DNA of 64,000 nucleotides from Archaeoglobales archaeon (GTDB taxonomy: Archaea; Halobacteriota; Archaeoglobi; Archaeoglobales; Archaeoglobaceae): NCBI GenBank assembly GCA_030055525.1, contig JASFYJ010000002.1:62001-126000 (forward strand). Reading direction: 5' to 3'. The stretch's first letter is position 1. The number at the start of each line of letters is the position of its first letter. Shown here piece by piece: positions 3,985-55,525 of this stretch. The translations under genes were made by a program, and so were the position numbers. The notes below the pieces were generated by a model that ran no database searches, was not told the DNA's origin, and saw only the letters and a program-made list of their open reading frames with translations.

Positions 3985-3990
3985 ACTTGG

Positions 3991-33780: not shown

Positions 33781-33848
33781 TACACTCTTTAAATCTAAAA
33801 CAAACCTCACGTCAAAAGATTTATAACTCACGGAAAAAAATAATAAGG

Positions 33849-35654: not shown

Positions 35655-35929
35655 AGCTATCCTCTTTCAAAGATTAAAAAATTTTTAGGTAAATGTGTCA
35701 ACCAAAGCACAAAACTGTGGGCAAAAATTTGGTTCTATTGCTTTTTGGCATAGTGATACTGCAAAACTCGCAAATTTTGAACAAATTCCGTAAAAAAACG
35801 AGGAGCATTCTGCGATATGACTTCAATAACGTTTCTACTGTCTCAATTCCCCGTAAATTATGCGAGGAGAAAATTTCTGGATAGCTACAATCCTTCGAAC
35901 ACACCTATTATCGCAGTATAAAAATTAGT

Positions 35930-36748: not shown

Positions 36749-36777
36749 AGACAGGATTGCAATGTTTTCTATGGAGT

Positions 36778-39514: not shown

Positions 39515-40008
39515 CACTCTTCACCTTTCGGCAAAATTGCCTCAGCGAAACGCCTGAGCCATTGCAAAAGCGCCAAAGCTTCCATCGTGGCAATGCGATA
39601 TTGCTGGCTGTTAGCGGAGTTGACGATCCATTCAAGCAGGTCATCGGTTAGTTTCAACTGTTGCTTCAGCCAATTTGAGATGTGTTGATAAAACACTTCA
39701 TGTTCATCAGAGGGGTCGCCTTTTCCTTTCGCCTTCAAAAAAGCCAGAGTTTGCCCCAAACCATTTGTCAAAATGAGTGATGGGACCTTGCGAGCAAGTG
39801 AGCCATATCCCTTTTTCCAGTTTTTGCCTCCTTCTTCGGATTGCAAAGTTTTTAGGCGCCTTTGGAGTTCTTCACGGTTTTTTTCGTTCCTTTCTTCAGC
39901 AATCCTCGCCCGCAATCCTTCAATAGCATGGTCAAGACAGTGCTGAATGCACTGCCACGCATATCTCGCCCGTTCCTGTTCCAGTGTCCTCATCATTGAT
40001 TGCATCAT
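39514..40008 (-). CDS. cmr5: Type III-B small subunit Cmr5
   Basis: 164 residues, all alpha-helical, starting MMQSMMRTLEQERARYAW with the usual RxxxAW pattern of the small subunit and GYGSLARKVPSLILTNGLGQT near the middle. Cmr5 lines the minor filament that contacts target RNA. The ATG overlaps the cmr4 stop by four bases. It is about 30-40 residues longer than many Cmr5 proteins, because of a charged insertion at about 35-60. Confidence 0.88.
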   Translation of the reverse strand: MMQSMMRTLEQERARYAWQCIQHCLDHAIEGLRARIAEERNEKNREELQRRLKTLQSEEGGKNWKKGYGSLARKVPSLILTNGLGQTLAFLKAKGKGDPSDEHEVFYQHISNWLKQQLKLTDDLLEWIVNSANSQQYRIATMEALALLQWLRRFAEAILPKGEE

Positions 40009-40949
40009 TTTTCACCTCTACAATAGAGCCGAACTTTTACAATTCCCCGTCCAACAGTTTCATCGCCGCCAATTTGTAAGCGGTCAAGTTTCAATTCCGA
40101 AAGTAACTTCAGAGCATCGTCAGCATTTGTCAATCCTAAGTTTTTAGCATTTGGTGCTAACGGTTTGCTTACAAAAATCGGCGCATAAAGCAAAGTTTCA
40201 CTGGGCAAGTGCTCTTCCGTCCAGAGTGCACCTTCGGCAACGGTCTTCTTCTCTTGGTCAAGCCGAATTCGGCTGATGACTTCTGTCGCCATCTGTGTGA
40301 AATCTCGGAAGGCATCGTCGGGTAAAATCACAAAGCGCTTCGGCAACCACTCACGCCATTGCTGGTATTCTTCGCTTTTGGGCAGAGCATAGTCCCTGAT
40401 CCACTCGGCAATCTGTTGTGCTTCCTCGTTTTCTTTTGCGTCAAAAGCAAACTCCTCAAGCACAACTTTGTCCTGAGCCTTGACTTCGCTTCCGTTGACA
40501 ACCAATGCTTGATTGCTGTTCGCTTGTAGTTGCGGAATTTCCCTAATTTCCCTATCAATTTGCATTCCCGCAGCAGTTGCTTCCCGCTTGAACCTTTCAA
40601 GCACGAATGGGCAAGTCGTCCATGCAAAAACACCAACAAGCGAGCGGACAGGGAAGAGTAAAACTCTTGCATCATGCGGACTAACACAACCTGCATATTC
40701 GTGTGCCCTTTGAGTTTCCGGACCAAACAACGCCTGAACTTTGTCGTTTGCTTGCGGGTCATTCCGTTGCTCAAGAATGCGCTTTGCTTCAGCCCTCAGC
40801 ACACCTTTCAGGCTTGAAGCTTGAATTATGGGTAAATTCGTAATTCTTTCCCGTTGGATTGGCAAATCAACGATACTCATACTACTTCCGCTACCCGCAT
40901 GCAAGGGAGTTTCGCAATATAGAAACAAAATTGCGGCCTTCTCAAACAT
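40005..40949 (-). CDS. cmr4: Type III-B backbone and target-RNA cutting subunit Cmr4
   Basis: 314 residues from the ATG at 40949 behind GGGAGGTGG; the longer TTG frame overlaps cmr3 and is unlikely. RAMP fold with SSLKGVLRAEAKRI as the glycine-rich loop and ETPLHAGSGSS at the start. The catalytic-loop Asp normally follows SIVDLPIQRE, which is present. Several copies form the backbone and cut target RNA every six nucleotides. Confidence 0.88.
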   Translation of the reverse strand: MFEKAAILFLYCETPLHAGSGSSMSIVDLPIQRERITNLPIIQASSLKGVLRAEAKRILEQRNDPQANDKVQALFGPETQRAHEYAGCVSPHDARVLLFPVRSLVGVFAWTTCPFVLERFKREATAAGMQIDREIREIPQLQANSNQALVVNGSEVKAQDKVVLEEFAFDAKENEEAQQIAEWIRDYALPKSEEYQQWREWLPKRFVILPDDAFRDFTQMATEVISRIRLDQEKKTVAEGALWTEEHLPSETLLYAPIFVSKPLAPNAKNLGLTNADDALKLLSELKLDRLQIGGDETVGRGIVKVRLYCRGEK

Positions 40950-40950
40950 A

Positions 40951-42111
40951 TTACCACCTCCCAATTAAAACTTTACCAAAACCAATATTTGCCCATGCGT
41001 TTTTGCCATTGTTCTGTTGACGCACTTCGTCGGGTGTTTCGGTGAACGCAAAGTTTTCGTCAAGTTTTGGTAGTTCATTAGCTTCAAAAAAGTAAACCGA
41101 ACCAGCTGAGACGAAGTTGCGAATAGGCTTCGGTTCGTTTCTTGCCATATCAAACCCACCAAACTTCTGCGCTCGCGGAATGGCTGCAGCGATCAGCCGA
41201 ACAGGTGCACCGAAAATCTTGCTCCAATCACCATCTTTAGGTTGCCAGCCGCCGGAAAACCACGCAGGTGAAATCAGCACGACTTTAAACCGCACAACTC
41301 CGGACTGCTTCTCCAACTTCGGCATGTAACTTGTGAAACTCGGCAATGGCTCAACTGCTTCATAAATTGCGCTTCGCCCTTCGCCACCAAATCGCAGAAA
41401 ACCTTCTTTACTTTGCAAATTCACACCTTCAACCTTTGCCCAAAGCGCCACGCCATATCTCAACCGCACAAAAGTTGCTCGGTAAAGCATCTGCGTTTGC
41501 GTTATGCGCTTGCTTCTGTCAATAGCAATGCCGAAGCGGGACTCAAGGGCGAAAAGGGAGTCGTTGTTTACAACTTGCTTCGGCGCTTCGCCTTGCAAAT
41601 ATCTTGCCCATTCGCTTTCTGGAAGCCAGCCTTTTGCTTCTTCTAACCTCCAATTCAAATCCTTCAGTTTGCTCAGAAGTTCGCTCTTCACTTCCGCCCA
41701 AAGCAATTGAAGTCTTTCGGGCAAATTCGTTTTGAAAGACAAGTCTGTTTTTGGCTTGAGCAAAATGAACCTCTCCTCAATCCTTTTCATATCATCTTCT
41801 ACTCTGACTTCCATTAACTCCACGGGCACTGGGATGAGTCTTTCCCACTTATCTTGCCTTTTGCGCGCAAGCATCGGTCCTATCAAACGCAACTTGCCGA
41901 AGTTATCGCCATAGCCGACATCTAAGTCAAGCGATTTGAATTGCGTAAAATCAACGCCTTTGTCAACAAGCACTTTGGTCCTGATTGCGCCTTGCAAAGT
42001 GAAAGGTGTCGGCGGGAAAATCGTCGCAGCATCGTGGTCTTCTCCCGCCGAAAACGGGCGACCGTCACGAAACAACCAAACATCAACGGGCTTAATAATT
42101 AACTCCATCAT
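40951..42111 (-). CDS. cmr3: Type III-B subunit Cmr3
   Basis: 386 residues. It starts MMELIIKPVDVWLFRDGRPF, diagnostic of Cmr3, with PPTPFTLQGAIRTKVL following, and ends with the Gly-rich IGFGKVLIGRW. Cmr3 binds the crRNA 5' tag and Cmr2. The ATG overlaps the original stop of the embedded HEPN gene as ATGA. That shows the HEPN/MNT pair was part of the same transcript before the HEPN gene was cut. Confidence 0.9.
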   Translation of the reverse strand: MMELIIKPVDVWLFRDGRPFSAGEDHDAATIFPPTPFTLQGAIRTKVLVDKGVDFTQFKSLDLDVGYGDNFGKLRLIGPMLARKRQDKWERLIPVPVELMEVRVEDDMKRIEERFILLKPKTDLSFKTNLPERLQLLWAEVKSELLSKLKDLNWRLEEAKGWLPESEWARYLQGEAPKQVVNNDSLFALESRFGIAIDRSKRITQTQMLYRATFVRLRYGVALWAKVEGVNLQSKEGFLRFGGEGRSAIYEAVEPLPSFTSYMPKLEKQSGVVRFKVVLISPAWFSGGWQPKDGDWSKIFGAPVRLIAAAIPRAQKFGGFDMARNEPKPIRNFVSAGSVYFFEANELPKLDENFAFTETPDEVRQQNNGKNAWANIGFGKVLIGRW

Positions 42112-42191
42112 CTATCACCTACCAACAACTTCTCACACTGTTCCAAGACAAATTTGGCTTTTTCTATCGCATTCTGGGCATCTTCATCGGA

Positions 42192-42530
42192 TTAAAGGGC
42201 TTCTGGCTGCACACCGCTTTCTTCGTCACCATACATGCTTAATTCCCTTTCAGCCCTCAAGGTGCGTGAGATGGATGCTAACTTCGGGATATATTGGGCA
42301 AATTCTTTCGGAAACATCCCAGCATTTTCCCTAAGCGCCGGTCCTACATCGTGCACTCGTGGAGGCTGAATCCCAACCCACACTAAGGCGCTTTTCAATG
42401 CCAACTCTACGGCTTCTTGACTTCGCCTAACAGCCAGATTCCAAAGACCCTTTGTACGCATGTTTATCGCTTCTTCAAGAATAGCCTTTGCCCTTGCAAG
42501 CATCAAATTTGCGCCTTCTTTGTTTTTCAA
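42192..42530 (-). CDS. HEPN domain protein inside the cmr operon, C-terminus lost to in-frame TAA
   Basis: 112 residues from a TTG that overlaps the MNT stop (TTGA). The helix NLAVRRSQEAVELALKSALVW is the HEPN signature, and VHDVGPALRE the following motif. A TAA at 42194-42192 ends it early. The same frame continues for 28 codons, beginning SDEDAQNAIEKAKFVLE, a good HEPN last helix, and stops at 42108 exactly over the cmr3 ATG. So the gene was 140 codons long and is truncated here, either by mutation or by a sequencing error. It is paired with the MNT gene. Confidence 0.78.
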   Translation of the reverse strand: MKNKEGANLMLARAKAILEEAINMRTKGLWNLAVRRSQEAVELALKSALVWVGIQPPRVHDVGPALRENAGMFPKEFAQYIPKLASISRTLRAERELSMYGDEESGVQPEAL

Positions 42531-43027
42531 AGTTCCACCACCTCGCCAGGCTTAAGGTCGGGCTTTAAAACCCAATAACGAACTTTGCCTAAATTTCTCC
42601 GCTGCGCGCCCAGTTCCTGCAAACGCTTCCTTAAAAGGTTCAACATGCCTTCCAAAAAACCATCACGGTCAAACAATATGACCGCATCTTCCACCATGTC
42701 TAAATAAATCCAGCGAAGTTGCCGTGCCTCTTCTTCCGTGAAGGCTAACTCCGAAAGGTTGGCGTAAATGTCTTGTTCCCAAAGCCTTTTCAACTCAGGG
42801 TAAAGCCTTTCCCTGATTGGCTCAAGCAACTCGTGACGCTTGAACACTCCATTCGGAAGTTGGCGACAAACGACAAAAAGGTCAATGTCAGAAGTCTCCG
42901 TTGCCTCTCCCCTCGCCACAGAACCGAAAAGAGCGATTGACATAAGGTTATCGCCTAAAACCTCGGCAGCAATTTGAACATACTTTTCTGCAAGTTGCCT
43001 GAGCCTTTCACTTATGCTCGTAGCCAT
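42527..43027 (-). CDS. MNT-type nucleotidyltransferase inside the cmr operon
   Basis: 166 residues from an ATG sharing a base with the cmr2 stop (TGATG); a GTG three bases upstream is possible. The motif SIALFGSVARGEATETSDIDLFVV contains the intact GS and DxD catalytic residues. The C-terminal region is basic and long for this family. It pairs with the HEPN protein downstream. Its base composition is like the cmr genes, not like the archaeal MNT at 34240, so it travelled with the cassette. Confidence 0.83.
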   Translation of the reverse strand: MATSISERLRQLAEKYVQIAAEVLGDNLMSIALFGSVARGEATETSDIDLFVVCRQLPNGVFKRHELLEPIRERLYPELKRLWEQDIYANLSELAFTEEEARQLRWIYLDMVEDAVILFDRDGFLEGMLNLLRKRLQELGAQRRNLGKVRYWVLKPDLKPGEVVEL

Positions 43028-45786
43028 CACTCACCACCTGCCAAAAACCTCATTAGCGTGATCCACTTCGCCAACTCAAGCAATCCATATTGCGGCTTAG
43101 TCAAGTCGTATGGGTCAGCATCTCTTTTCGCATGACAATTCAACGCATCTGCCAGTTGAGCCAGTTGGTGAGCAAGTTCGGGCAAGACTCGTTCCTTCGC
43201 TTCTTTTTCACCCTCGCTGTGCCTTCTAAGCAACCTGAGCAATTCAGCCTCTTGAGCCTCAACGGGCAAGTGCACAAGTGCGAATGCTTCTTCCATCAAT
43301 GCATTTGCAAACCGACTTGACAGTTTCACTTCGCCTTTGCCCTCCATCATCGCTTTGACTTTCAAAAGCAACTCCAGCGTGTCTTTGACACAATGCTTTG
43401 GGTAGAAGAACTTAGCACCCATTTGCACGCGTTCGCCAGAGCGCTTTAGCCATCTAACGCAAATTGCGTTGCGACCGTAACGCTCTTTCGCATCTTCCTC
43501 CGCTTCTCTCGCCTGCTGCAACGCATCGCGCAATGGATGCAAGCGGTGAGCGATAACGATGCCAACGCTTGCAGTTGCTTTATTTCCCATTGTGAGCAAC
43601 TTTTTCCCATCCCAATCAATCCATCCAGTCCATCGCCCGCTATCAAACTCAACTTCAATATCGCCGTTAAATTTTCGTTCCGCTTCGCCAGAAAAGAGTG
43701 CTCGCAACTTGTAAGCAGCAGACAAGGCTTCAGCAAGGGGCAGAAAGGCGAGCACATCGTCGCCGCCAGCGTAAACAAGTCGGCCATAATGAAGTTCCTC
43801 AACGACATAGGGAACACAGTGGAGCGCAAAATTAGTGAGGGCTTGGCTTATCGCAGCATGAAGTGAAGGAGAGATTAAGCGCTTTTGGCTCAAAACTTTT
43901 TGCCATTGCTGATCATCCTTCAACTGCTCAAGAGCCTTTGGATGAAGCATTGCTTCAAAATTCGCCAAACCTTCATGCGTCCCACTCAGCCATTTGCCCA
44001 TCCCATCGCCATCCATGATCAAGATGGCGTAGTAATCGGTTGGATGAGCATCGGCAACTTTGCACAAATCGCTCAATGCCTTTCGCAATTCTTGCAAATC
44101 ATCTTCATTCAGCTTGACACCATGTGTTCGTTCAAGTCGCTCACGGTCGTAACTTTCCAAGAAAAACCATTCACCATCAAGGCTGACAAATTTCTTTGCA
44201 TCGTCGCCAATTTTCTCTGCCATTTCAATCAACTTCGGGATATCCATCTCGGTGAAAGCAACTCTCTTGAGCGCAGTTCTTTCAATGGTTGCAATTAAAT
44301 CCCGCATTTCGCTTTTGGTTTGCTCCCACTTTTCCAGCACAGTTTTCACAAAGGTTGCTGCAGCAACGCTGTCAGTTGAAGGGAAATCGCCCTTTAAGCC
44401 AAGTTTGTCTTTGAGCACGAAGGGTAAGACGAAGCGTTTAATGGCACAGATAGCGCAAAGTCTTTCACTGCCATCTTGCTTAACATGCCCAGAGAGTTTC
44501 TTCGCAACTTCTTGCCAAAACTTTCTACCTTGCCAATCTCTTTGGTCATGCAGAACTTCTCGCTCCCCGCAAATAGTGCACTTGCCTGCGGGTTCGAAAA
44601 TTTGCTCAAAGTTACGAGTTGACTTTCGTGCTGCCAAAGCCCTTTCCGACAAATCGTGGCAGGCAGCGTAAACCGTGCCTTGATTGGATGGATAAGCACC
44701 TTTGAGTTCAAGCAACTCTTCAAACCGTTCATCGCCTGTCAGTTCCTTGTAAAGCCCAGCAATTTCCTCAGGCGTGTTGTTCCATTCATAAATCGCCCAG
44801 TAAATTTCTGAAAACTGCTCAACTTGGCGCTGCCAGATTTTGCTTACTACATTATTGAACTCAGGCGCTTCTTGAGTTAACTGCTTCCAAACTTCATCAG
44901 CCAACCGCTTCCATTCGTTGCACACAGCTTTTTCGCATTCCTTTGCCAAATTTTCCGCTTCTTCAGCAGGCACAATTGCGTTGAACTTGTTCGGAAAAGT
45001 TGCCAGACGCAAACGGCTGTCATCTGGATCAGCAATTTGCAAATCCTTTTCGCTCAGCCAAAAGTCAACGAGCGGTTGTTCAAGCAACGATGGGTAAATC
45101 ACATGGTCGGGACCGAGTTTTTCAGCGATGACCTTGATTGCGTGCCAAATAAGGTAAGAGAGCAAGTAACTCCCCATCCAAAGGTCGCGTGTTTTTCTTG
45201 CAGTGGCGATGAAACTTTGAACCGGTCCAATGCTAAAAACGAGCGTCGCAGGTTTTGCAATAGCAGCGAAAGCACTTGCGACGCGGTTGTGGTGCAAGAG
45301 CGAGTGGTTTGGGACGCGAGTGTCAGCAGGCAGAAGTTCCCAGGGCAAATTTGGCTCATGGCGATGCAGTTCCTCTTCAAAACAGCGCCAGAAAAGCAAA
45401 AATCGCTTTTGCGGATCATTGGACTTTTGGCTTAAAGAGCGAACGGCTTCTTCTTGAGCATTGTGGGATTGTTTTGGGGAAGTGATGTTCAAGGGCAAAC
45501 GTTGCCCCGAGAGCGGATGAATGATGAGCGAATTTATTGGATGAGTCCAGTCAAGGACTTCCACATTCCCAGGGAAATTCGGTCTGTCGGCAGCGGAAGC
45601 GATTTTGTCGGCATTTTTCGCAGCCCTGACCCATGAAGCATCTGGAATTTCCGTTGATGGAACAGGCAAATCCTTAAGCGCAAGTTGCATTAAAACGCTG
45701 GCACGATCTTCGTGTCTCGAAATTTGCAATGCTTTATCGGGTGGATCGTGAAGTAAGGCGACTATTTTACGTTGCCAGTAGGCCAT
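43027..45786 (-). CDS. cmr2: Cas10-type subunit Cmr2 with intact cyclase GGDD motif
   Basis: 919 residues from an ATG behind GGAGGTG, overlapping cmr1 by 25 bases. The N-terminal region has WQRKIVALLHDPPDKAL, an HD-like start whose catalytic set looks incomplete. A zinc-binding cysteine set follows (CTICGERE, then CAICAIKRF). The first palm has DGDGMGKWLSG, the second palm the active YAGGDDVLAFLPLAEAL. It makes cyclic oligoadenylates upon target binding, which would activate the Csx1-type protein in this operon. Confidence 0.92.
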   Translation of the reverse strand: MAYWQRKIVALLHDPPDKALQISRHEDRASVLMQLALKDLPVPSTEIPDASWVRAAKNADKIASAADRPNFPGNVEVLDWTHPINSLIIHPLSGQRLPLNITSPKQSHNAQEEAVRSLSQKSNDPQKRFLLFWRCFEEELHRHEPNLPWELLPADTRVPNHSLLHHNRVASAFAAIAKPATLVFSIGPVQSFIATARKTRDLWMGSYLLSYLIWHAIKVIAEKLGPDHVIYPSLLEQPLVDFWLSEKDLQIADPDDSRLRLATFPNKFNAIVPAEEAENLAKECEKAVCNEWKRLADEVWKQLTQEAPEFNNVVSKIWQRQVEQFSEIYWAIYEWNNTPEEIAGLYKELTGDERFEELLELKGAYPSNQGTVYAACHDLSERALAARKSTRNFEQIFEPAGKCTICGEREVLHDQRDWQGRKFWQEVAKKLSGHVKQDGSERLCAICAIKRFVLPFVLKDKLGLKGDFPSTDSVAAATFVKTVLEKWEQTKSEMRDLIATIERTALKRVAFTEMDIPKLIEMAEKIGDDAKKFVSLDGEWFFLESYDRERLERTHGVKLNEDDLQELRKALSDLCKVADAHPTDYYAILIMDGDGMGKWLSGTHEGLANFEAMLHPKALEQLKDDQQWQKVLSQKRLISPSLHAAISQALTNFALHCVPYVVEELHYGRLVYAGGDDVLAFLPLAEALSAAYKLRALFSGEAERKFNGDIEVEFDSGRWTGWIDWDGKKLLTMGNKATASVGIVIAHRLHPLRDALQQAREAEEDAKERYGRNAICVRWLKRSGERVQMGAKFFYPKHCVKDTLELLLKVKAMMEGKGEVKLSSRFANALMEEAFALVHLPVEAQEAELLRLLRRHSEGEKEAKERVLPELAHQLAQLADALNCHAKRDADPYDLTKPQYGLLELAKWITLMRFLAGGE

Positions 45787-46676
45787 TTTTCTGGCACCTC
45801 CTTAAAACCAAAAACAACCTCGCCCTCAAAAGCATTAAGGAAGGCAACAAGTTTTCCGCGATCAACACGGCCTAAGCTCGGGTTCATTTTAGACAGCAGA
45901 GTCGTCAACACCAACGCGTATTTGCCATTCGTCAATTTTGTGACATGGACATGTATGGGTGATGCCTGTCGTTTCTCCTTACCGCCAGCCCAACCTAAAC
46001 TGGGATTTCTGTGCTCATGGGCTTTTTCCATTACGAACCTAATCGCTTCCTCCCAACTGCCAAACTCTTTTTTGTAAACTCTGATTTGGGTCCACCAAGG
46101 ATGAAGTATGGGAAAACTGGGTGTTGAACTCACAGATGCAAATTTGTTACCTGTTATTTTCTCCAACTGCTCCTTTAAACGCGAAGACAATTCTTTGGTC
46201 GTGCTGGCTTCCAATTTGGGTAAATCTCCATTGACAATTTGCAAACTTCCAAACCCGCGACGGCTGCGCCTTCCGAGTCCGCCAAGAAGACAAAGCAACT
46301 GCAGCGCTTTGGCTGCTTGTTCGAGAGCGCCTTCATCACGACTTAGCAAGGTAAGGGTGAAGTTCTGGTCTGGAATAAAGCCCTTGAAGGTGAACTTTTT
46401 TGATTCTTTTCTGTGTGGAAGTGGGTCAAATTCACCAGAATCTGGTCTGCAGAGATGCCGAACCCTCACAATCACAGGCGAAGCATGTTCAGTGCTACCG
46501 AAAACTGCACTTTCGTGCTTGAAAATTTCCTGCGGATTATTGCCTAAAACGCCCCCAAGAAGAGCTCGGAGCCAAAACCTCATCACTCCACGAAACGATG
46601 GAGCACGAAGCTCTGGTTCTCTTTGATTTGCACCGGCCAAGAATAGAGGTGTTACTGTTTCAAGTTCCGCTCTCAT
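45762..46676 (-). CDS. cmr1: Type III-B RAMP protein Cmr1
   Basis: 304 residues from the ATG at 46676 (MRAELETVTPLFLAGAN), the usual Cmr1 start; an in-frame GTG 60 bases upstream would add an unmatched extension. The RAMP loop APSFRGVMRFWLRALLGGVL and the second Gly-rich LLGGLGRRSRRGFGSL are typical. Cmr1 sits at the crRNA 3' end next to Cmr6. It is first gene of the cassette. The upstream flank (46680-46800) has the archaeal AT-rich style again, marking one island edge. Confidence 0.87.
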   Translation of the reverse strand: MRAELETVTPLFLAGANQREPELRAPSFRGVMRFWLRALLGGVLGNNPQEIFKHESAVFGSTEHASPVIVRVRHLCRPDSGEFDPLPHRKESKKFTFKGFIPDQNFTLTLLSRDEGALEQAAKALQLLCLLGGLGRRSRRGFGSLQIVNGDLPKLEASTTKELSSRLKEQLEKITGNKFASVSSTPSFPILHPWWTQIRVYKKEFGSWEEAIRFVMEKAHEHRNPSLGWAGGKEKRQASPIHVHVTKLTNGKYALVLTTLLSKMNPSLGRVDRGKLVAFLNAFEGEVVFGFKEVPEKWPTGNVK

Positions 46677-46800
46677 CAGACCATTTTTAGTAATCAACAA
46701 TTTAAAGTTTGCGATAAAATATTCAAGTCGATTCACAAGTTATAGCAGCTTTAACATGAGAAGCCAGCAATATTCTCCTGCGTCTGCGATAATCTTGTCT

Positions 46801-46974
46801 CTAAAAAACTCTAAAAAACATATAACAACTGTACAGAAAATTTATAAATGATAGAATGAATAAAAAAAGAATAATGTAATCCCAAAGAGAGTCGATTGGC
46901 AAATTTATTGCGAGGAGTATTAAAAAGACCAAAAGAGTTAAAATTGAAGATATCAGTCTTCTTTTCTCCTCCAT
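46801..46974 (-). CDS. Small two-helix membrane protein, possible immunity protein
   Basis: 57 residues from the ATG at 46974 behind a GGTGA ribosome site; the longer frame starting at 47031 overlaps the upstream gene. Two hydrophobic helices (LISSILTLLVFLILLAI and YIILFLFILSFINFLY). It is last gene of the halocin-like operon, 20 bases after that gene. Small membrane proteins in this position commonly protect the producer from its own pore-forming peptide, which I infer here without sequence proof. Confidence 0.6.
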   Translation of the reverse strand: MEEKRRLISSILTLLVFLILLAINLPIDSLWDYIILFLFILSFINFLYSCYMFFRVF

Positions 46975-46994
46975 TAAATCACCATAATTTGAAA

Positions 46995-47756
46995 CTATAA
47001 ATGGGTTACAGATATCCAAGACAACGAGCACAATCTGTACAGGAGATTACAGGAGATTACAGAACCGGCAAAGCTCAGAATTGTACCTATGTTGGCTATT
47101 ATACAGTAAGTTACCAAACAGAGGGCACAAGTCCATGCTGTAAACACTGCTATACACGGAGCAAAACAAGGCCAGCAGTTGTATATAACTGCTCCCGTAG
47201 CTATAACGCAACCCAAACAAGACCATGCACACTGTGTTTGATCAAAAACGATAGCGCTCCCTTTCCCCTCAACATTAAACTCAGCCAAATTCCTCTCAAC
47301 CGCTCTGCCCAAATAGCCCAGCTCAAGCTTAGCCTTATTCCAAATCCAAGAAGTCTCATCTTGCTTTCTTATCTCATTCAGCACTTCAGCAAGAATTCTG
47401 TAGTGCTCAGAGAGCTTGGCTTTGCTTTTGATCTCGATGACATCAGCGAATGGAGCGAACTTCTTTTCATCCTTAGGAGCTACATTAACAGCGGTTACAA
47501 AGTAATTCTCGCCTTCAACTTGTATCATTCTTGTCACCAAGCTCATATTATAGCTAGCGGTTTCGGCGAAGTAGCTAAGCACTTTGAAATCGAAGCTCGC
47601 TGTTGCGTTGTAAACTTTTACTTCGCTGAAATTTAGCTTCTTGCCATTGTTTGAGTAATTGTAGATCTCTTTGATCTCCACTTGGTAATCAAATGCTAAG
47701 CAGCTTTGATCTTGGCAAGAGCTTTCGCTACTTCTTTTCTCTATCATTTCAATCAC
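46995..47756 (-). CDS. Halocin-C8-like Cys-rich protein (candidate archaeocin precursor)
   Basis: 253 residues from a GTG overlapping the upstream stop (GTGA); an ATG nine bases on is possible. Residues 1-165 are soluble and mixed alpha/beta. The last 80 residues are very hydrophobic with eleven cysteines, including C-AWS-C-LG-C, NC-WP-C-FAP-C and TC-AL-C-LVTY-C. This resembles the layout of halocin C8, in which an N-terminal immunity/leader region precedes a C-terminal 76-residue peptide with ten cysteines. No N-terminal signal is visible; export might depend on partner proteins. It is cotranscribed with 47950, 47753 and 46801. The halocin link is by pattern, not proven homology. Confidence 0.6.
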   Translation of the reverse strand: MIEMIEKRSSESSCQDQSCLAFDYQVEIKEIYNYSNNGKKLNFSEVKVYNATASFDFKVLSYFAETASYNMSLVTRMIQVEGENYFVTAVNVAPKDEKKFAPFADVIEIKSKAKLSEHYRILAEVLNEIRKQDETSWIWNKAKLELGYLGRAVERNLAEFNVEGKGSAIVFDQTQCAWSCLGCVIATGAVIYNCWPCFAPCIAVFTAWTCALCLVTYCIIANIGTILSFAGSVISCNLLYRLCSLSWISVTHL

Positions 47757-47953
47757 TTCCTAATCCGCAGCAATTTTTTACTTACAACTTTAAAAATAGC
47801 AAATATTACAAGCAAGAGTCCGATTAGGAAAATCGTCCCAAATAAGAACATGACTGGCTTTGCAAAACACGGAGCAATTGTTGCTGAAATTAGCAAGTAG
47901 ATAAGTAAAAATATTAGCAAATAATAGATTACATTATTATTCCTTATCTTCAT
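47753..47953 (-). CDS. Small two-helix membrane protein
   Basis: 66 residues. Two membrane helices (YYLLIFLLIYLLISATIAP and FLFGTIFLIGLLLVIFAIF) and a basic end KKLLRIRK. It is flanked by four-base overlaps: its start with the secreted protein at 47950 and its stop with the halocin-like gene. It could be an immunity or export partner for the Cys-rich protein. No family recognised. Confidence 0.6.
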   Translation of the reverse strand: MKIRNNNVIYYLLIFLLIYLLISATIAPCFAKPVMFLFGTIFLIGLLLVIFAIFKVVSKKLLRIRK

Positions 47954-48759
47954 GATACTGTCACCGTAAAGCTATCTGAGGATACATCACCCCAACCGAT
48001 GATAGCATCCACAACCGCAGTTCCGGCTTCAAATTTGAATTTTCCAGAGTTAGTGTATGTAACGTCAAGCACAACCTGTTTTTTGTATCCAGAAAGATGA
48101 ACCGCTTGCCAGAAAAGAAGTTCCCCTTTGCCGCAAACAACGCCATACTCTGGGACTGGATAACATCCATTTGTCTCTGTCAGGTGAATCTTAGCTATTA
48201 GCTGTGGACCATCAAGAACTCCATTATAAGTAACACCTTGTGGAATTATGATGAAGTAGGAGGTATACCCTATTGTTACACCTCCATTATCGACGAATAA
48301 AGTAACTATTCCATTCTCGCCTTTTCTATAGCTATATTTGTCAGGATATATGTCTAAATAAGCGTCTGGAGGAATTGGAACACTCAGTCGATAAGTTCTT
48401 TCTCCAAGGTTCTCAATTGGATTGTAATTTGAGACTCCACTCCAAATTTCCAAATTCCTGCTATTCAAAATCTTGATGATGTATGTGCTATTTGTATGGG
48501 GAAGGACTAAGATCCTGTATTTTTGACCTTTGATCTCTGTTTCAGCAATCCATTCGCTTAAGCTTTTGTTCACTTCTGTAATGTTCAAAATCGCCTTTCC
48601 ATTCTTTGCAATTTCAACTTCCACAATTCTCTTCAGCGTTATGTCGGTGCAACTGTTTTCACTATCTACTTCAGCCTTTTTTGCCATCACTGGCGTCGCT
48701 AAATTGCAAAGCATGACCAAAACCAGAAACAGGCTTATTATTTTCTTAGCCATTGCCAT
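47950..48759 (-). CDS. Secreted beta-rich protein, first gene of the halocin-like operon
   Basis: 269 residues. The N-terminal signal MAMAKKIISLFLVLVML is nearly identical, also at DNA level, to that of the C39-like protease at 49717. The mature part (after about residue 27) is beta-rich and Gly/Tyr/Asn-rich, with four cysteines (SCTD, GCYPV, VCGK) that could form disulfides outside the cell. Several NxS/T sites suggest glycosylation. Promoter block B precedes it. Function unknown; a carrier or tolerance protein for the Cys-rich peptide is one guess. Confidence 0.65.
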   Translation of the reverse strand: MAMAKKIISLFLVLVMLCNLATPVMAKKAEVDSENSCTDITLKRIVEVEIAKNGKAILNITEVNKSLSEWIAETEIKGQKYRILVLPHTNSTYIIKILNSRNLEIWSGVSNYNPIENLGERTYRLSVPIPPDAYLDIYPDKYSYRKGENGIVTLFVDNGGVTIGYTSYFIIIPQGVTYNGVLDGPQLIAKIHLTETNGCYPVPEYGVVCGKGELLFWQAVHLSGYKKQVVLDVTYTNSGKFKFEAGTAVVDAIIGWGDVSSDSFTVTVS

Positions 48760-48860
48760 GCTCTCACTAAGCTATGTTGTGTGCTACTAATATATAAGTA
48801 TTTCGCTACTTGCTGACATATATGTAAAAAGAGGTTTTTGATTTGGAATAAAATTTTGAA
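48760..48860 (-). promoter_or_regulatory. Promoter block B with palindromic motif ACATATATGT
   Basis: Minus-strand order: AAAAGTGTTACTAAAATT, TTTACATATATGTCAGCAAG (palindrome 48816-48825), then CTTATATATTAG as TATA-like box, then TTAGTGAGAGC and ATG. It matches block A almost base for base outside short stretches. The palindrome starts 57 bases before the start codon of the secreted protein, the same as in block A. It drives genes 47950, 47753, 46995 and 46801. Confidence 0.82.
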
Positions 48861-49026
48861 TTTTAGTAACACTTTTTAAGCTTAAAAAATACAAAATACT
48901 AAAATAATTCGGGGCTAAAATTGCTGAAATTCTGCGTTTAGAAATGGGATCAAAAAATTGAGTTGAATCTGTAATCCTAACAAGAGAATACTCCTCTCTT
49001 AGAGATGCCCAAAAAGCAATTGAAGA

Positions 49027-49716
49027 TTAGAAAAATTGTTGAAAAGAAATTCCACCCGCTATTAATTCGCTCAGCAGGCTAATTTCGCTCTTTGAGATTT
49101 TTGCAAGCAATATGATGTCTCCATCGAGTTTAGAATATACACAAATCTCTCCTTTTTCAGCTATAAATCCATCTTGGAATTCCTGAATTGAATAATTTTG
49201 CTTTCTGAGCCGTTCTCGGAATTCAAAATAGGATTCATTAGCATTCGAATGGCAGAACTTGAATAAGTTTTTAATACATTCTACACACCCCAAACGTCCC
49301 CCTCCAAAGTAAAAAGTCGCGATTTTTAGAGATTTATTTGTAAAGGCAGCAGAATATTGTCCACTAAAACATTCTGGTGCATCAAAATCCCAGATCGATT
49401 TTTCAGCTCCCGTAGTGTTAACATTTCTGATCAGATACATGTATGCGAACTGATCCGGATTCTCTCCAATTGTAGATAGATCAGCTATGAGACAAAAAGA
49501 AAAGAACATGGAAAGCAAAAAGGGGACTATGTAGATTACGCTTTTCTCTTTTATAAACCACATAAAAAAGAGAATTATAGGTATTAGAATTTGAGAGAGG
49601 GATACAACAGCAGGATTAAGAGGCAGCGAAAGGAGATCGAAAATAAAAATTGTTAATACAAAAATTAGAAGCGGAGTTAGACCAAACAAAAAGGAAATAA
49701 GCAATTTTATTTTCAT
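49027..49716 (-). CDS. Membrane protein with extracytoplasmic Cys-containing domain
   Basis: 229 residues. Four N-terminal helices (to about residue 90) are followed by a soluble domain of about 130 residues, probably outside. It contains CFSGQYS and the cluster GCVECIKNLFKFCHS, four cysteines within 17 residues, which could hold a metal or disulfides. It starts right after the C39-like protease gene and is probably cotranscribed with it from block C. No family recognised. A role as immunity, substrate-binding or thiol-redox partner of the protease is possible. Confidence 0.6.
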   Translation of the reverse strand: MKIKLLISFLFGLTPLLIFVLTIFIFDLLSLPLNPAVVSLSQILIPIILFFMWFIKEKSVIYIVPFLLSMFFSFCLIADLSTIGENPDQFAYMYLIRNVNTTGAEKSIWDFDAPECFSGQYSAAFTNKSLKIATFYFGGGRLGCVECIKNLFKFCHSNANESYFEFRERLRKQNYSIQEFQDGFIAEKGEICVYSKLDGDIILLAKISKSEISLLSELIAGGISFQQFF

Positions 49717-50871
49717 TTAAACCACTGGTCTGACCCAAGTCGCGGAAACGAACCACCAGTTTCCGAAAGCCAAGTAGTGGACATTAGTGTCCCAAGTATC
49801 ATATAGCAACAAGAATTTCTCGTTATTAGTGCCTATAGCGTAACCGATTACTGTGACTGCGTGATTTCCATACGGAATTGTCCATCCGCTCCCATTCCCC
49901 CCATTCCACATACTCAACACAAAGGGTCTACTTTGGTTTATCTCTCCTGTAATTTCGCTCCAACTTGGCTGAGGTAGCCACCTGTTTGAAGCCCAAGAGC
50001 TATACCCTCTCTTATTAAGAACGTTGTTAATGCCATCATCTATCAGATACCACCACGTAGCTCCGCTGTTGTCTGTCCCCATCTCTATGTGCAGTTCCTC
50101 TGTTAAATCTCTGTGTTCATTTACTGGATCGTCGAAACTATTTCCGCTGAGGTCTGAAGGTTCAAAATACCAAGAGTCAGGTAAATTTATATTAACATAT
50201 TCCCTATACCCCCAATATTCCAAAACCATTGCTGCAGCAGTAGGAGCGCATCCGTCATCCCAATAAAATGCTGGAACACCATAAATTCTCCTTTCATAAT
50301 AAGAGAATTTTTGATTTGCTGAGCCTTCATAAGCCTTCCAGATTTTCTCCGCCTCTAAAGTTCGGTTCTCAAACTCTTTTTTTATTTTCTCATCCGACAA
50401 AGCTTTTTTAAGCTCACTTTGAAGGGCGTTAAAGTCAACCTCTCTTCCAAAAAGGTCATAGTATCTCTTTTCTTTCTTGAATATGTAAATTGTTCCACCA
50501 AGATAATACACTTTGTCAGCGTGTATTCCTGCCTCTTTAGCAACCATTATTGGAGATTTTCCTCTCGAGAATTCAAGAATTGGATAATTCGTCTTCTTTG
50601 CTGAAACTACCACATATCCAGAATAATTCCCGTTCTTTGTCAGCTCAAATAGGTATGCATTTAACTCCCCGTTGAAGTCGTGAAGTTCAGAAATTTTTCC
50701 TATTTCTGCCTTATCCCACTCTTTAAATTCTTCAATTTCGGAGATTTTTTGAATGAATTTTATTACAACTTTGGTGCTTTGATTAGCTTCGTTAGCTATC
50801 ACTGACATTGAAGTGCTAACAACCATAACTAAAACCAGAAACAGGCTTATTATTTTCTTGGCTATTGTCAT
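49717..50871 (-). CDS. Secreted C39-like papain-fold cysteine protease
   Basis: 384 residues. The signal peptide MTIAKKIISLFLVLVMVV matches that of the protein at 47950. A pro-like region (about 30-190) is followed by the catalytic domain with DDGCAPTAAAMVLEYWG (Cys around residue 207), PYGNHAVTVIGYA (His) and LLYDTWDTN (Asp), the C39_2 layout shared with bacteriocin-processing peptidases. Active outside the cell. In this setting it could cut a peptide precursor such as the halocin-like protein. It is directly behind promoter block C. Confidence 0.78.
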   Translation of the reverse strand: MTIAKKIISLFLVLVMVVSTSMSVIANEANQSTKVVIKFIQKISEIEEFKEWDKAEIGKISELHDFNGELNAYLFELTKNGNYSGYVVVSAKKTNYPILEFSRGKSPIMVAKEAGIHADKVYYLGGTIYIFKKEKRYYDLFGREVDFNALQSELKKALSDEKIKKEFENRTLEAEKIWKAYEGSANQKFSYYERRIYGVPAFYWDDGCAPTAAAMVLEYWGYREYVNINLPDSWYFEPSDLSGNSFDDPVNEHRDLTEELHIEMGTDNSGATWWYLIDDGINNVLNKRGYSSWASNRWLPQPSWSEITGEINQSRPFVLSMWNGGNGSGWTIPYGNHAVTVIGYAIGTNNEKFLLLYDTWDTNVHYLAFGNWWFVSATWVRPVV

Positions 50872-50975
50872 GCTCTCACCAAACTATGCTAACCCTTATA
50901 GTATATAATTTTTGCTACTTGCTGACATATATGTAAAGAGAAGTTTTTGATTTTAGATAAAATTTTGTATCCTAA
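50872..50975 (-). promoter_or_regulatory. Promoter block C with palindromic motif ACATATATGT
   Basis: Minus-strand order: AAAAAGTGTTATTAGG, TTTACATATATGTCAGCAAG (palindrome 50925-50934), AATTATATACTATAAG as TATA-like element, then GGTGAGAGC and the ATG at 50871. The palindrome starts 54 bases before the start codon. It drives the secreted C39-like protease and the membrane protein at 49027. The stretch between 50976 and 51091 has no further recognisable feature. Confidence 0.82.
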
Positions 50976-51091
50976 TAACACTTTTTAAGCTCGAGGCTTT
51001 CTAAGGTTAAAGAGTATAAAATGATCACTAAACCCGAACTTCTTGAGCTAACAATAAGCAATATTAAAAATTTCTGAATCGAGAGCATATT

Positions 51092-51697
51092 TTAAATTGA
51101 GAAGAACAACGCGTAGCCGAGAACGATTGGCATTGGAAGAAAAACTAAGAATGCTTTTATTTTCCTGAAAACAAAACAGAAAGCAGAGGGGATTAAGGAG
51201 AATTCGAGATAAATTGTAACCAATAGTATAAACCGAAGTTCTGCTGGTAAATTATGAGCAAAACCAACCGACTCTGCTCTTCCAGTCGGGAGCAGAAAAA
51301 GAATTGCCAGTCCGGCAGAGATCAGAAACCAGAAGTAGAAGGCAAAGATTTCCCTTCTGCTTACTCCCGCAGAGAGCAAAAAAGAGCTTGCAAAGATGGC
51401 TGGAAAGACTATGAGAGTTATGGGTAGCAAAGACGCTAAGATACTTACAAGATCTATCTCTTTCACCAAATAGAGCAATGCTGAGCCCAGAAGGAGATTA
51501 GCAATGAGCCCAGCAATAAAAATTCCCAAAATTGTTGTCTTTTTTGAAAAGAAGCTTTGGAATCTAAGCATAATCGCGGGAACTATTGCGAGGAGTAGAA
51601 TTAAACCGAGAAAGGACAGGCTTGGAATGAATTTAAGCCCAACTGCGACCAAAAGAACTGCAAGGAAAAAGATTAGGACGTTCAGATTCTCCCGCAT
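51092..51697 (-). CDS. Polytopic membrane protein
   Basis: 201 residues from the ATG at 51697, behind a GGTGA ribosome site at 51707-51703. Six hydrophobic helices, few charged loops, including the loop SRREIFAFYF between helices four and five. No family recognised. It follows the small leader frame 51703-51789 and so comes under promoter block D. It is a candidate permease or immunity protein of the same regulon. Confidence 0.58.
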   Translation of the reverse strand: MRENLNVLIFFLAVLLVAVGLKFIPSLSFLGLILLLAIVPAIMLRFQSFFSKKTTILGIFIAGLIANLLLGSALLYLVKEIDLVSILASLLPITLIVFPAIFASSFLLSAGVSRREIFAFYFWFLISAGLAILFLLPTGRAESVGFAHNLPAELRFILLVTIYLEFSLIPSAFCFVFRKIKAFLVFLPMPIVLGYALFFSI

Positions 51698-51702
51698 TAA
51701 GA

Positions 51703-51789
51703 TCACCTCACGTATTTAATCACTCCGAGGGATATTTGGCTGTTTCGCAAACAGCTCAGAATAAGGCTTATTTTCTCAAGGATAGCCAT
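51703..51789 (-). CDS. 28-codon leader frame, apparent decayed copy of the shared signal-peptide segment
   Basis: It starts at an ATG at 51789 with GGTGAAAGC upstream. The product, MAILEKISLILSCLRNSQIS and eight more residues, resembles the shared signal MTIAKKIISLFLVLVM over its first twelve positions, including its DNA. It then stops just before the membrane-protein gene at 51697. I read it as a leftover from a duplicated promoter-plus-signal unit whose original coding part was replaced. It may still be translated as a short leader. Confidence 0.45.
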   Translation of the reverse strand: MAILEKISLILSCLRNSQISLGVIKYVR

Positions 51790-51855
51790 GCTTTCACCTA
51801 ACTAAGCATAGATTTACAGAATATAAGAATTTCGCTCCTTGCTGACATATTTACT
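51790..51855 (-). promoter_or_regulatory. Promoter block D, degenerate copy
   Basis: Minus-strand order: AAATATGTCAGCAAGGAGC, then TTCTTATATTCTG as TATA-like box, then TTAGGTGAAAGC and the ATG at 51789. Only half of the palindrome survives (ATATGT at 51845-51850 side), but the CAGCAAG-x-AGC extension and the 56-base distance to the start codon are kept. The left part runs into the end of the MFS gene, so the copy is truncated. Confidence 0.6.
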
Positions 51856-53355
51856 TTAAGTCCTATTTGCCTTTAAGCTGTTCAAATGTTCTTCGCCACT
51901 CAAAAAAAGTAGGGTTAGAAGCGAGGCAAAGATTGGGAGCCATAGCATTGTAGAGAAAACGAAGGCAAAGCTGTTCATGAAACCTTCAACCATTCCAATC
52001 AGTGGAACTGGTTTGCCCTGAACCGCTAAATAGAACAACAAATTCATCGTGCCTGGATCGGGTATCTGGTTGCCGTAGCTTGGAATCCAGTCCTTCATTC
52101 TGTTTGTAAGCAAAACGCCACCAACCGCAACACCCATCGCCTGAGCTAAGGTATTCATCGATCTTAGCGTTCCATTTGCCACTCCCGCCTTTTCTATTGG
52201 AATCGAAGCCATCAAAACGTTTAATGTCGGAGATATAAGCAATCCATTGCCTATTCCGAGAGGTATGAGCATAACAAAGAATTCCCAGTAGGTAACTTCG
52301 ATCCTTACATCCATCAGGTTGAACATGCCGAAAGCGAAGAGCAGAGGACCGAGACACATGAGATATTTTGGATTCATCTTGTCACTAAGCCTTCCCGCAA
52401 TTGGAGACACTATTGTGTTCATAATTGGCATTGCGATCATCCAGTAGCCCGCCTGTTCTGCACTTAGAGATTTTATTCCCTGAAGGAAGTATGGAATTAG
52501 AAAGATTGAGGCTGACATTCCAAAAAATAAAATTGACGACGCCAAGCACCCTACTGTGAAATTACGAACTCTAAATAAGCTCAAATCGAGCAAAGGATAT
52601 TCATAGGTTATTTCTCTGAAAACGAATGCTATTAAGTATGGAATCGAAATCACAAAGCATGCTAAGGTTTTTTCATCACTCCATCCCCAGTTCTGCCCCT
52701 CTATGATGCCCAAAGTCAGTGAACCCAAGCCGATGGCGAGCAAAAAAGTTCCGAGATAGTCTATTGGCATTTTCTCTCTCGCCCCAAGCTTTGGAATTGT
52801 GAACCAGCCCGCAATTGTAGAGATTATTCCGATTGGGACGTTTATATAAAAAACCCAGTGCCAGCTCAAATGCGTAGTGAGCCAACCACCTATTATTGGA
52901 CCAAGAGTAAAGCTTGATGCCATCAGAATGCCATTTAAGCCCATTACTGTTCCCCTTTTTCCCGCTGGGAAAAGTTCAGTTGCTATTGCCAATGTATTTG
53001 CGCTCAAAATCGTTCCTCCGACTGCCTGAATTATGCGGAAAAAGATTAGTGACTCTATGTTCCACGATTGCGCACAGAGAAAACTGCTTGCTGTGAATAT
53101 GACCATGCCGAGAATGAAAAGCCTATCTCGCCTATACATGTCTCCAAGCCTGCCAGTGAGCACAAGCAACACAACCATCGTTAGCGTGTAGGAATTCAGA
53201 ATCCACTGCAAATCCGACATCTTTGCGTTGAAATCCTCTGCAATTCTTGGTAAGGCTACATTAAGAACGCTGACATCGAGCAAAACCATGAATAGACCGA
53301 AGCTTACAGGTAAGAAGGCTATCCAGCTCTTTAACAAGCTTTCTTGCTGGTTCAT
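51856..53355 (-). CDS. DHA2-type MFS multidrug exporter (EmrB/QacA family)
   Basis: 499 residues with 14 predicted helices. Motif FMVLLDVSVLNVALPRIAED in helix 1, GRLGDMYRRDRLFILGM (MFS motif A) between helices 2 and 3, and GPIIGGWLTTHLSWHWVFYINVP (motif C and end) are typical for proton-driven drug exporters of the DHA2 group. It is downstream of the large exported protein at 53352 with a four-base overlap. Substrate not readable. An export or resistance role fits the surrounding peptide locus. Confidence 0.87.
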   Translation of the reverse strand: MNQQESLLKSWIAFLPVSFGLFMVLLDVSVLNVALPRIAEDFNAKMSDLQWILNSYTLTMVVLLVLTGRLGDMYRRDRLFILGMVIFTASSFLCAQSWNIESLIFFRIIQAVGGTILSANTLAIATELFPAGKRGTVMGLNGILMASSFTLGPIIGGWLTTHLSWHWVFYINVPIGIISTIAGWFTIPKLGAREKMPIDYLGTFLLAIGLGSLTLGIIEGQNWGWSDEKTLACFVISIPYLIAFVFREITYEYPLLDLSLFRVRNFTVGCLASSILFFGMSASIFLIPYFLQGIKSLSAEQAGYWMIAMPIMNTIVSPIAGRLSDKMNPKYLMCLGPLLFAFGMFNLMDVRIEVTYWEFFVMLIPLGIGNGLLISPTLNVLMASIPIEKAGVANGTLRSMNTLAQAMGVAVGGVLLTNRMKDWIPSYGNQIPDPGTMNLLFYLAVQGKPVPLIGMVEGFMNSFAFVFSTMLWLPIFASLLTLLFLSGEEHLNSLKANRT

Positions 53356-55430
53356 GCTTTCCTTCTTTTTCTCGCAAACCTTACAATTGCAATTATTGCA
53401 AAGGAGATTAGGGCTAAAGTGGTGATTGTGACGAAATTAAGCAGAGGTCCCTCTTTGACTTCGATTGAAACCGTTATTGGATTTGACTTCTGCTTGTAGC
53501 CATCTTCATTCTCAAAGCCCAAAGTAATCGTTGCGGGATAAAATCCAATTCCAGCATCCTTGCTTGCCTCAATCCTGAACTTAGCTACAGCGGTATCTCC
53601 TGGATTCATAGTCCCAACAAAGTAAACTCCCGGCTGAGATACACCAATCATGCTCGCAATCGAGCTCACTCCAGCAACGCTGAGAGGTGGTGAAACCTGC
53701 AATTCAACAACAGCATTCTTTGCAACAGCACTCCCAGAATTCTTTATCTTAACCGCTATCTCTCCAGTTGAATCTGGATAAAGCTCCCCATCTACGCTGA
53801 GGACTTCAAAGGCTGAAAATTTCGGTGCGACGAAAACGGGAACCTCGATTATGCTTAGTAGATCTTCAGCATTTCCAATTTTATACTTTGCGAGAATATA
53901 AAGCCTGTAATAACCACCAAGAGCGTCTTCAGAAACTGAAAGCCTGAACTTAGCCTCTCCAACATCATTTGGGTTCAACTTCTGCAGATAAGAGCTTTGA
54001 CTAAGAGTGGTTATAAAAGAGGGGACAAAAATATAGAGTTCCACGGATTCCAAGGCATAATCAATCTTATTTTTAAGCGAAACCCTCAAATCCCCCTTTA
54101 AACCAACCCCAAGCTGGGATTCAACCTTTTCAATGCCTATAAGCGACGGGCTCACTTCTACTTCAACGAATTCCTGAGGTGTAGCAACTTCGCTTCCAAG
54201 TTCGTTCCTGTATTTCAGCAAAAAGCTTCCCCGATAGCTCCCAGCGGGAGCCATGGATTTTACATAGAACAACGCAATCTTCTTTTCTCCTTTTTTGATA
54301 TTGCCTATATAAGGCGTGTTTTCTGGCTGAAGAGCTTGATTATCAAATGAGAGTATTGCAACCACATTTTGAAGGTCTTCCTGACTTTCGAATTCAACGC
54401 TCACAACTCCTCTTGAAGCCATAGTCACGAATTGTGTTGAACTTTGCGACTGAGTTTGCATCAGGCTGGAAAGCAAGCTTGATTGACCAATGGAAACCGC
54501 TTGAGTAGCTTGGGAGCTTTGAATGGATTTTGCTGGAGTTAAAAAGCTTTCAACTTTCGATACCGAGAAAACCTTTCCCTTTTCAACCGCTAAACCAATT
54601 TGCTTTGAAATCGCAATCTGCCCAGAATTTGTGCTGAATTTTAATGTCAGCGATGCGGGATAATCTTGGCTTAAAGCTTTATCGCTCACAAAGACTTTAA
54701 AAGATACCGAGATCTTTTCGCCTGCTTTTAGCTCACTTATGTAAGTTGAAATCGCATCTGGATTTGGCAGAATCGGAGCGGAGACGTTCAAGAATACTAC
54801 TGCATCTTTTATATCCTTTTCACCGACATTCTCTATGACTAAATCAACCTTTCCTTCTCTTCCAGCTTTTAATGGACCGCTTACAACCTTAGCACTGAAA
54901 TCGTAGTCTTTCTTTGCGATTTTGATTTTAAAGTATTCCGTGACCTTTTGAGCTCCTGAATAGCTTAGAAGGTAATTTGAGCCTACTGCGGATAGGGAAA
55001 CCTTTGTATAACTTATTTCAACTGGAATCGAGTATTCACCAAGCGGGGCATTTTCATCAATCTTAACTCTAAAAGTGGCGCTTGCAGTTCTTCCAGCTGG
55101 AAGGTCTCCGATTATTTGTGCGTTAGCTGTTTCAACGCTTATTGGATAACCTCCTTCAAGCTCAACCCTCACGTCTTTGGCTGTTGTCAGTAAGGTTAGC
55201 AGTTGCGAAGTGTTCTCGTTTGCAGGAAAGTCGGTTATTTTGGCTTCATTTTCTATCAAAAGGGTTAAGGCAGTATCGTCGCCAAGATAAAGCTTTCCAT
55301 CTCCAGCAACTGAAACTTGAAAATCTATTTGAGGTTCAATTGCATAGGTTATAGGTATCGTTAAAATGAAAGCTATTAGAACGAGAACTATATACTTACT
55401 ATATCCTACAGATATTTTTATCTGATTCAA
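53352..55430 (-). CDS. Large exported protein with repeated Ig-like (COG1361/NEW3-type) domains and C-terminal anchor
   Basis: 692 residues. A signal sequence (IVLVLIAFILTIPITYAIEP) starts the chain. Four to five repeated beta-sandwich units follow, recognisable by patterns such as GEYSIPVEISYTK, APAGSYRGSFLLKYRNE and IGFYPATITLGFENEDGY, each ending with a tyrosine/glycine strand. A single C-terminal membrane helix (FVTITTLALISFAIIAIV) and RFARKRRKA end it. This is the plan of the archaeal S-layer-like COG1361 proteins. It overlaps the DHA2 exporter by four bases; such pairs suggest an extracellular partner of the exporter. Confidence 0.78.
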   Translation of the reverse strand: MNQIKISVGYSKYIVLVLIAFILTIPITYAIEPQIDFQVSVAGDGKLYLGDDTALTLLIENEAKITDFPANENTSQLLTLLTTAKDVRVELEGGYPISVETANAQIIGDLPAGRTASATFRVKIDENAPLGEYSIPVEISYTKVSLSAVGSNYLLSYSGAQKVTEYFKIKIAKKDYDFSAKVVSGPLKAGREGKVDLVIENVGEKDIKDAVVFLNVSAPILPNPDAISTYISELKAGEKISVSFKVFVSDKALSQDYPASLTLKFSTNSGQIAISKQIGLAVEKGKVFSVSKVESFLTPAKSIQSSQATQAVSIGQSSLLSSLMQTQSQSSTQFVTMASRGVVSVEFESQEDLQNVVAILSFDNQALQPENTPYIGNIKKGEKKIALFYVKSMAPAGSYRGSFLLKYRNELGSEVATPQEFVEVEVSPSLIGIEKVESQLGVGLKGDLRVSLKNKIDYALESVELYIFVPSFITTLSQSSYLQKLNPNDVGEAKFRLSVSEDALGGYYRLYILAKYKIGNAEDLLSIIEVPVFVAPKFSAFEVLSVDGELYPDSTGEIAVKIKNSGSAVAKNAVVELQVSPPLSVAGVSSIASMIGVSQPGVYFVGTMNPGDTAVAKFRIEASKDAGIGFYPATITLGFENEDGYKQKSNPITVSIEVKEGPLLNFVTITTLALISFAIIAIVRFARKRRKA

Positions 55431-55525
55431 CTTTCCACCTCTTTTTGTTTTATTTTTAGACTCGAATTCAGATTATAACGGTTTTGGACATCTTCTTGTT
55501 ACGTCGGAGATAAAAAATTTTGAAA

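Follow-up and report, generated by a model that had tools for sequence, protein, structure and literature searches.

We consider it likely that the 64,000-nt window analyzed here, part of a 1.56-Mb metagenome-assembled genome (MAG) of the Archaeoglobaceae, contains a displaced cassette belonging to a polymorphic archaeocin-immunity system, in which a conserved carrier is joined to exchangeable, cysteine-rich tails, each followed by a membrane protein gene. Antagonism among archaea is poorly known, and the archaeocins described so far come mainly from haloarchaea and Sulfolobales. The host had been guessed from the letters of the sequence to be a euryarchaeal anaerobe, and this guess was borne out by its placement in the Archaeoglobaceae.

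The core of the cassette is gene C (46,995–47,756, minus strand), which codes for an orphan archaeocin-like pre-protein of 253 aa, starting with GTG, and consists of a carrier domain (47,241–47,756, minus strand) followed by a hydrophobic, Cys-rich tail that we designated type T1 (46,998–47,240, minus strand). The original prediction of an ORF with 11 cysteines in its last 80 residues was correct, although it named no strand; the ORF occupies the minus strand, and the plus frame contains stops. The tail has the highest Cys count among the 63 ORFs of at least 100 aa in the window, an enrichment with P ~8e-9, given a local Cys rate of 1.3%. Gene C differs from its relatives predominantly at the third position of codons (for example, 4/4/18 and 11/10/37 differences at positions 1/2/3), which argues that it is a real coding gene whose product is, or was, under selection. 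A plus-strand ORF (47,001–47,636) was rejected, the substitutions fitting the minus frame. Searches of the window proteins retrieved no match for gene C in Pfam, NCBIfam or PADLOC.

The signal peptide of the intact relatives is absent from gene C, and the missing leader, together with some 65 carrier residues, is carried by the upstream 269-aa gene A. The T1 tail and the gene behind it, gene D, show ~99% DNA identity to contig 10 of the genome of a sister species (G008), where the tail is otherwise nearly identical, reads ...SVISCTDCARCLGYL and has 12 cysteines. The odd count in the window (11 vs. 12) is explained by a 10-bp tandem duplication (caggagatta, twice; 47,040–47,059, assigned to no strand), which puts the last ~18 residues of the tail out of frame. 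Being leaderless and frameshifted, gene C is probably not itself a working archaeocin, and the window copy is probably an inactive, displaced orphan cassette. An AF2 model of the carrier plus T1, built on an alignment of ten sequences, displayed a beta sheet and two helices in the carrier (pLDDT 60–80; 57 for the whole model); structure prediction had been proposed as a check of the Cys-rich tail and did yield helices there, but with pLDDT below 50. A Foldseek comparison of this model with the PDB returned nothing significant, just weak NTF2-like folds.

A genome scan recovered relatives from five Archaeoglobi/Archaeoglobales loci (MAGs), including Archaeoglobus sp. UBA230. Intact members of the family start with a Sec-like leader (MTAKK.../MLKKV...LVLVML...PVMA), continue with a conserved carrier of ~190 residues, which closes with NVEGxGxAxxxD, and finish with a hydrophobic tail that is rich in cysteines and varies between members; examples of leader-bearing genes are those of G060 (350 aa), G062 (343 aa), and G063 (339 aa). 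The carrier domain was present in 10 Archaeoglobaceae genomes, corresponding to five of the ten genomes of genus g1 and to five genomes of genus g5, among them the complete, single-contig genome G060 (2,178,400 bp). Beyond these two genera we found only weak matches, limited to the leader or to a halocin C8 tail; a scan of IMG/VR revealed no viral copies of the carrier.

Across the genomes of g1 and g5, the same carrier bears at least six types of tail: T1 (window and G008), T2 (G004 and G008), T3/T3b (G003, G060, G063, and G008; with the halocin C8 domain TIGR04449 where tested), T4 (G024 and G063), T5 (G062, G024, and G013), and T6 (G060, G062, and G024); types T7 and T8 are borne by a different carrier. 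Types T4, T5, and T6 are distantly related to one another, and in the tail comparison T1 and T2 matched no other type. The tails contain no Pfam toxin domain, and some of them contain a halocin C8 domain. Intact tails have 10, 12, 12, 12, 12, 12, 14, 14, 16, or 18 cysteines, all the counts being even. A second type of carrier with a T8 tail of 16 cysteines was seen in G020 (locus L136) and G024 (locus L109; positions 3,971–5,099 of its reverse complement); a TM gene follows the T8 gene in G020, and a 65-aa ORF with 15 cysteines lies near the copy from G024.

Behind every Archaeoglobaceae tail checked there is a TM gene, usually overlapping it or within ~60 nt, against a background rate of TM genes of 16–24% of the window ORFs. 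The TM genes that follow the same type of tail in different species are 94% (T1), 44% (T4), 65% (T5), and 85% (T6) identical, the T6-type TM gene from G024 being more distant (25% identity, E 4e-8), and a single weak link was found between TM families (T4–T5, E 1e-3). The TM genes behind two T2 tails did not match each other using blastp, nor did those behind two T3 tails, so that the linkage is either not universal or beyond the reach of blastp for such short proteins. Given that the type of membrane gene goes along with the type of tail, the two-helix gene downstream makes a good candidate for immunity, although the tail-specific TM genes could serve for export or anchoring rather than for immunity.

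Homologs of these TM genes also occur without tails, which is what would be expected of immunity genes. The window contains an orphan 55-aa two-TM gene (30,739–30,906, minus strand), which shares 95% identity with the TM gene following a TIGR04449 tail in G008, and an orphan multi-TM gene (34,788–35,654, minus strand) homologous to the TM genes behind T4 tails (35% identity, E 1e-39). The latter closes a series of three tail-less multi-TM genes (34,788–37,419, minus strand; the other two at 36,778–37,419 and 35,930–36,748), which looks like an immunity-gene array. Another tail-less array is found at ~1,917.4–1,919.7 kb of the single contig of G060 (locus L147), with T5-like and T4-type TM genes; its third TM gene resembles, as read by eye, one from G024.

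The Cys-rich gene had also been described as accompanied by two-helix ORFs and by a secreted protein, all of them present (the secreted protein with 269 aa), and both two-helix genes had been proposed as immunity candidates. This proposal fits gene D (46,801–46,974, minus strand), located directly behind the T1 tail, whereas gene B (47,753–47,953, minus strand) partners gene A. Gene D most likely starts at the ATG at position 46,974 and would thus code for a 57-aa two-TM protein, a candidate for cognate immunity; among 55 genomes of the family, its homologs are found only beside T1 tails (two out of two). Gene A (47,950–48,759, minus strand) is a chimera in which an export leader and some 65 aa from the archaeocin carrier are fused to a beta-rich body, and gene B, of 66 aa and with two TM helices, is a candidate for its immunity or partner protein. 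In genus g9 (G073), the body of gene A exists by itself as a secreted protein (56% identity over its full length), which has its own leader, lacks the carrier piece and is followed, in the same place as gene B, by a two-TM gene of 65 aa; both small proteins are alike in size, place and topology, with no significant blastp score. The existence of this stand-alone version suggests that the body of gene A and the TM gene B form a portable pair, apparently spliced into the carrier. Genes A and B, as well as B and C, overlap by 4 nt, the GTG start of gene C overlapping the stop of gene B. The same order is seen in G060, with a leader-bearing pre-protein, a TM gene, a leaderless ORF with carrier and tail (4-nt overlap), and a two-TM gene. 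Gene A has no sequence relative in the PDB, and its single-sequence AF2 model reached a pLDDT of 40, too low for a fold search.

Synteny with two loci from G008 places a crossover inside the carrier (47,253–47,305, assigned to no strand). Positions 39,890–47,726 of the window are collinear with contig 10 from G008 (95.9% identity), and positions 47,260–48,885 and 50,821–55,485 with its contig 7 (95–96%); these blocks overlap only inside the carrier and, at around position 47,260, the identity drops sharply for contig 7 and goes up for contig 10. As the window belongs to a MAG, what looks like a crossover within a repeated carrier may be a join made during assembly; the order of genes A, B, and C, which is independent of the crossover, is also found in G008. 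The extra stretch at 48,886–50,820, containing a C39-like peptidase gene and a TM gene, is flanked by leader repeats that comprise promoter and signal peptide, one belonging to gene A (48,716–48,885, minus strand) and the other to the peptidase gene (50,821–50,991, minus strand); a third copy (33,661–33,782) retains the upstream part only. Directly downstream of the cassette there are type III-B (Cmr) CRISPR genes (38,744–46,736, minus strand; Cmr2, of 919 aa, and RAMPs), syntenic with contig 10 from G008. A 204-aa multi-TM protein (51,092–51,706, minus strand) belongs to a family that recurs near such loci in G008, where it is split by a frameshift, G013, and G060.

Judged from its sequence, gene C would work like a halocin pre-protein, but it is not a member of the halocin C8 family. 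The profile search that had been suggested for its tail gave no match: neither the window T1 tail nor the intact copy from G008 matched TIGR04449 (halocin_C8_dom, NCBIfam; curated cut-off of 24 bits), and T1 scored below most of its own shuffles with an in-house halocin C8 HMM, that is, it has no detectable homology. Of the other types put to this HMM with shuffled controls (T2, T4, T5, T6, and T8), T2 and T8 were unmatched and T4 was weakly positive. Other tails on the same carrier did pass TIGR04449, both in open frames (38.5–38.7 bits in G003 and 62.6 bits in G060) and in the frameshifted gene from contig 9 of G008 (43.4 bits). The halocin-C8-like reading thus stands for an archaeocin-like family with same-carrier relatives in TIGR04449, but not for the T1 tail. 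The soluble N-terminal part had been likened to the immunity region of halocin C8, a likeness to which profile comparison lent no support: using hhalign with four groups of N-domains, the carrier was not homologous to the HalI-type N-domains of haloarchaea. A single hhalign match to methanogen-type domains (residues 5–67) was disregarded because it covers the leader region. It is therefore unlikely that gene C is a plain halocin C8 pre-protein, with a HalI-type immunity domain as its N-terminal part, the halocin C8 peptide as its tail and incidental neighbors; such a reading would account for the shared leader-domain-Cys tail layout and for the two carrier-bearing relatives above the cut-off, but it is at odds with the behavior of the T1 tail and of the carrier in these searches, as well as with the recurrence of tail-matched TM genes.

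Hydrophobic tails and membrane partners would also suit a polymorphic system for surface or self/non-self recognition, in which the tails hold the carrier in the membrane, or cluster it there, along with a tail-specific TM protein. A parallel is offered by the VARTIG modules from Thermococcales, which combine variable secreted proteins and matched membrane proteins, with no known toxin domain (PMC8416519). Likened here by description, these modules also come from hyperthermophilic archaea, and their hypervariable secreted proteins are likewise arranged in arrays together with matched membrane proteins; on the other hand, no Ig-domain lead protein was identified in our loci, whose tails are Cys-rich and partly halocin C8-like. 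We regard a recognition system as rather unlikely, because some tails are members of the halocin C8 family, named after a known secreted antimicrobial, even numbers of cysteines would suit a peptide that is released and rich in disulfides, and the orphan TM genes without tails fit immunity best. Finally, gene C might be no more than a decaying pseudogene from an ordinary family of membrane proteins, without a role today, in agreement with its lack of a leader, its frameshifted tail end and the many broken relatives (in G002, G013, G024, and contigs 7 and 9 of G008). Nevertheless, the carrier frame shows protein-level selection and there are intact leader-bearing genes in G060, G062, and G063; this explanation, which we find very improbable, would account for the state of the window copy but not for the family pattern.

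In the polymorphic archaeocin-immunity system that we favor, an intact unit would be formed by a secreted pre-protein, with a Sec-type leader, a beta-rich carrier of ~190 residues and an exchangeable tail, plus a tail-matched membrane protein. The pre-protein would be exported, the tail cysteines would pair into disulfides and a protease would cut near the conserved carrier end (NVEG-x-G-x-A-x-x-x-D); the released, putatively helical peptide would then attack the membrane of close relatives, with the cognate membrane protein shielding the producer. The maturation protease of halocin C8-type peptides is still unidentified (PMC12893001). Recombination within conserved sequence, that of the carrier and leader, would generate the diversity. 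As for the window, the body of gene A and the TM gene B would have been spliced into the carrier as a new unit that took over the leader, and the old carrier-T1 tail would have been left downstream with the TM gene D as an orphan, like the orphan tips of CdiA/Rhs.

The halocin C8 family (HalC8/HalI; TIGR04449) resembles the system proposed here in having secreted pre-proteins in which a soluble N-terminal part precedes a hydrophobic tail, mostly with 10–12 cysteines, and in other archaea small TM genes likewise lie behind many TIGR04449 genes. Conversely, the T1 tail of the window does not belong to TIGR04449, the N-domains of haloarchaea are unrelated to the carrier, one carrier bears several unrelated tails, and the leaders are Sec-like and lack a twin arginine, whereas HalC8 is exported by Tat (PMC11509114). 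In other families of the phylum, three halocin C8-type genes (loci L102, L103, and L104, from G173, G185, and G276, respectively) are overlapped by a 3-TM gene, possibly their immunity partner.

The swapping of tails with a matching membrane gene is a layout better known from bacterial polymorphic toxins. As in CdiA/Rhs (PMC3482391), there is a conserved N-terminal trafficking part with several unrelated, variable C-terminal modules, an immunity-like gene directly downstream, orphan modules downstream that retain a carrier piece, recombination at the border, and orphan immunity-like genes; the family of the TM gene follows that of the tail for T1, T4, T5, and T6, and no match was seen between the TM genes of T2 or between those of T3. 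The differences are that the carrier is secreted and small (250–350 aa), not a giant surface protein, that disulfide-rich hydrophobic peptides are predicted in place of nucleases as C-terminal modules, and that the putative immunity proteins are integral membrane proteins. Archaeal PTS are also on record, as far as Makarova et al. (2019) are cited in PMC8416519.

If our reading is true, G060 and its relatives hold exchangeable archaeocin cassettes with matched membrane immunity proteins, in which the logic of polymorphic toxins is applied to small disulfide-rich peptides. This would provide concrete toxin-immunity pairs, several new families of Cys-rich tails and candidate immunity proteins for halocin C8-type peptides. 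The 2019 survey by Makarova and coworkers reportedly expanded the range of halocin C8 to a large number of archaea; the halocin tails from Archaeoglobus may thus already be known, and carrier swapping and the linkage of tails and TM genes may or may not have been described previously in this genus.

The platform may carry more than peptides, because genes for other secreted proteins have similar leaders and TM followers. The C39-like cysteine peptidase (PF13529; 49,717–50,871, minus strand) is a secreted protein with the same type of leader, possibly an effector or a processing enzyme, and has a TM gene directly behind (49,027–49,716, minus strand); this pair recurs in another genus (G067), with 46 and 28% identity, respectively. 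Likewise, zinc phospholipase C-like secreted proteins with similar leaders and TM followers are found in G060 (PF00882, 1.9e-13), and there is a sub-threshold match to one on contig 5 of the window genome. We tentatively propose, as a possibility that we place somewhat below even chances, that a single recombining leader/carrier platform serves a whole effector set in Archaeoglobaceae, including several disulfide-rich archaeocin families, C39-like peptidases, zinc phospholipase C-like proteins and the beta-rich protein, each with its own membrane immunity protein, as well as orphan tips and immunity arrays; this would be a membrane-attack polymorphic toxin system of hyperthermophilic archaea, with carrier recombination as its switch. 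Behind the partial leader repeat at 33,661–33,782 there is a gene for a 139-aa membrane protein with six cysteines in its last ~38 residues (33,244–33,663, minus strand), which overlaps a 380-aa multi-TM gene (32,111–33,253) followed by an ABC-type ATPase fragment (31,342–31,719); this locus perhaps represents another peptide with its exporter or immunity.
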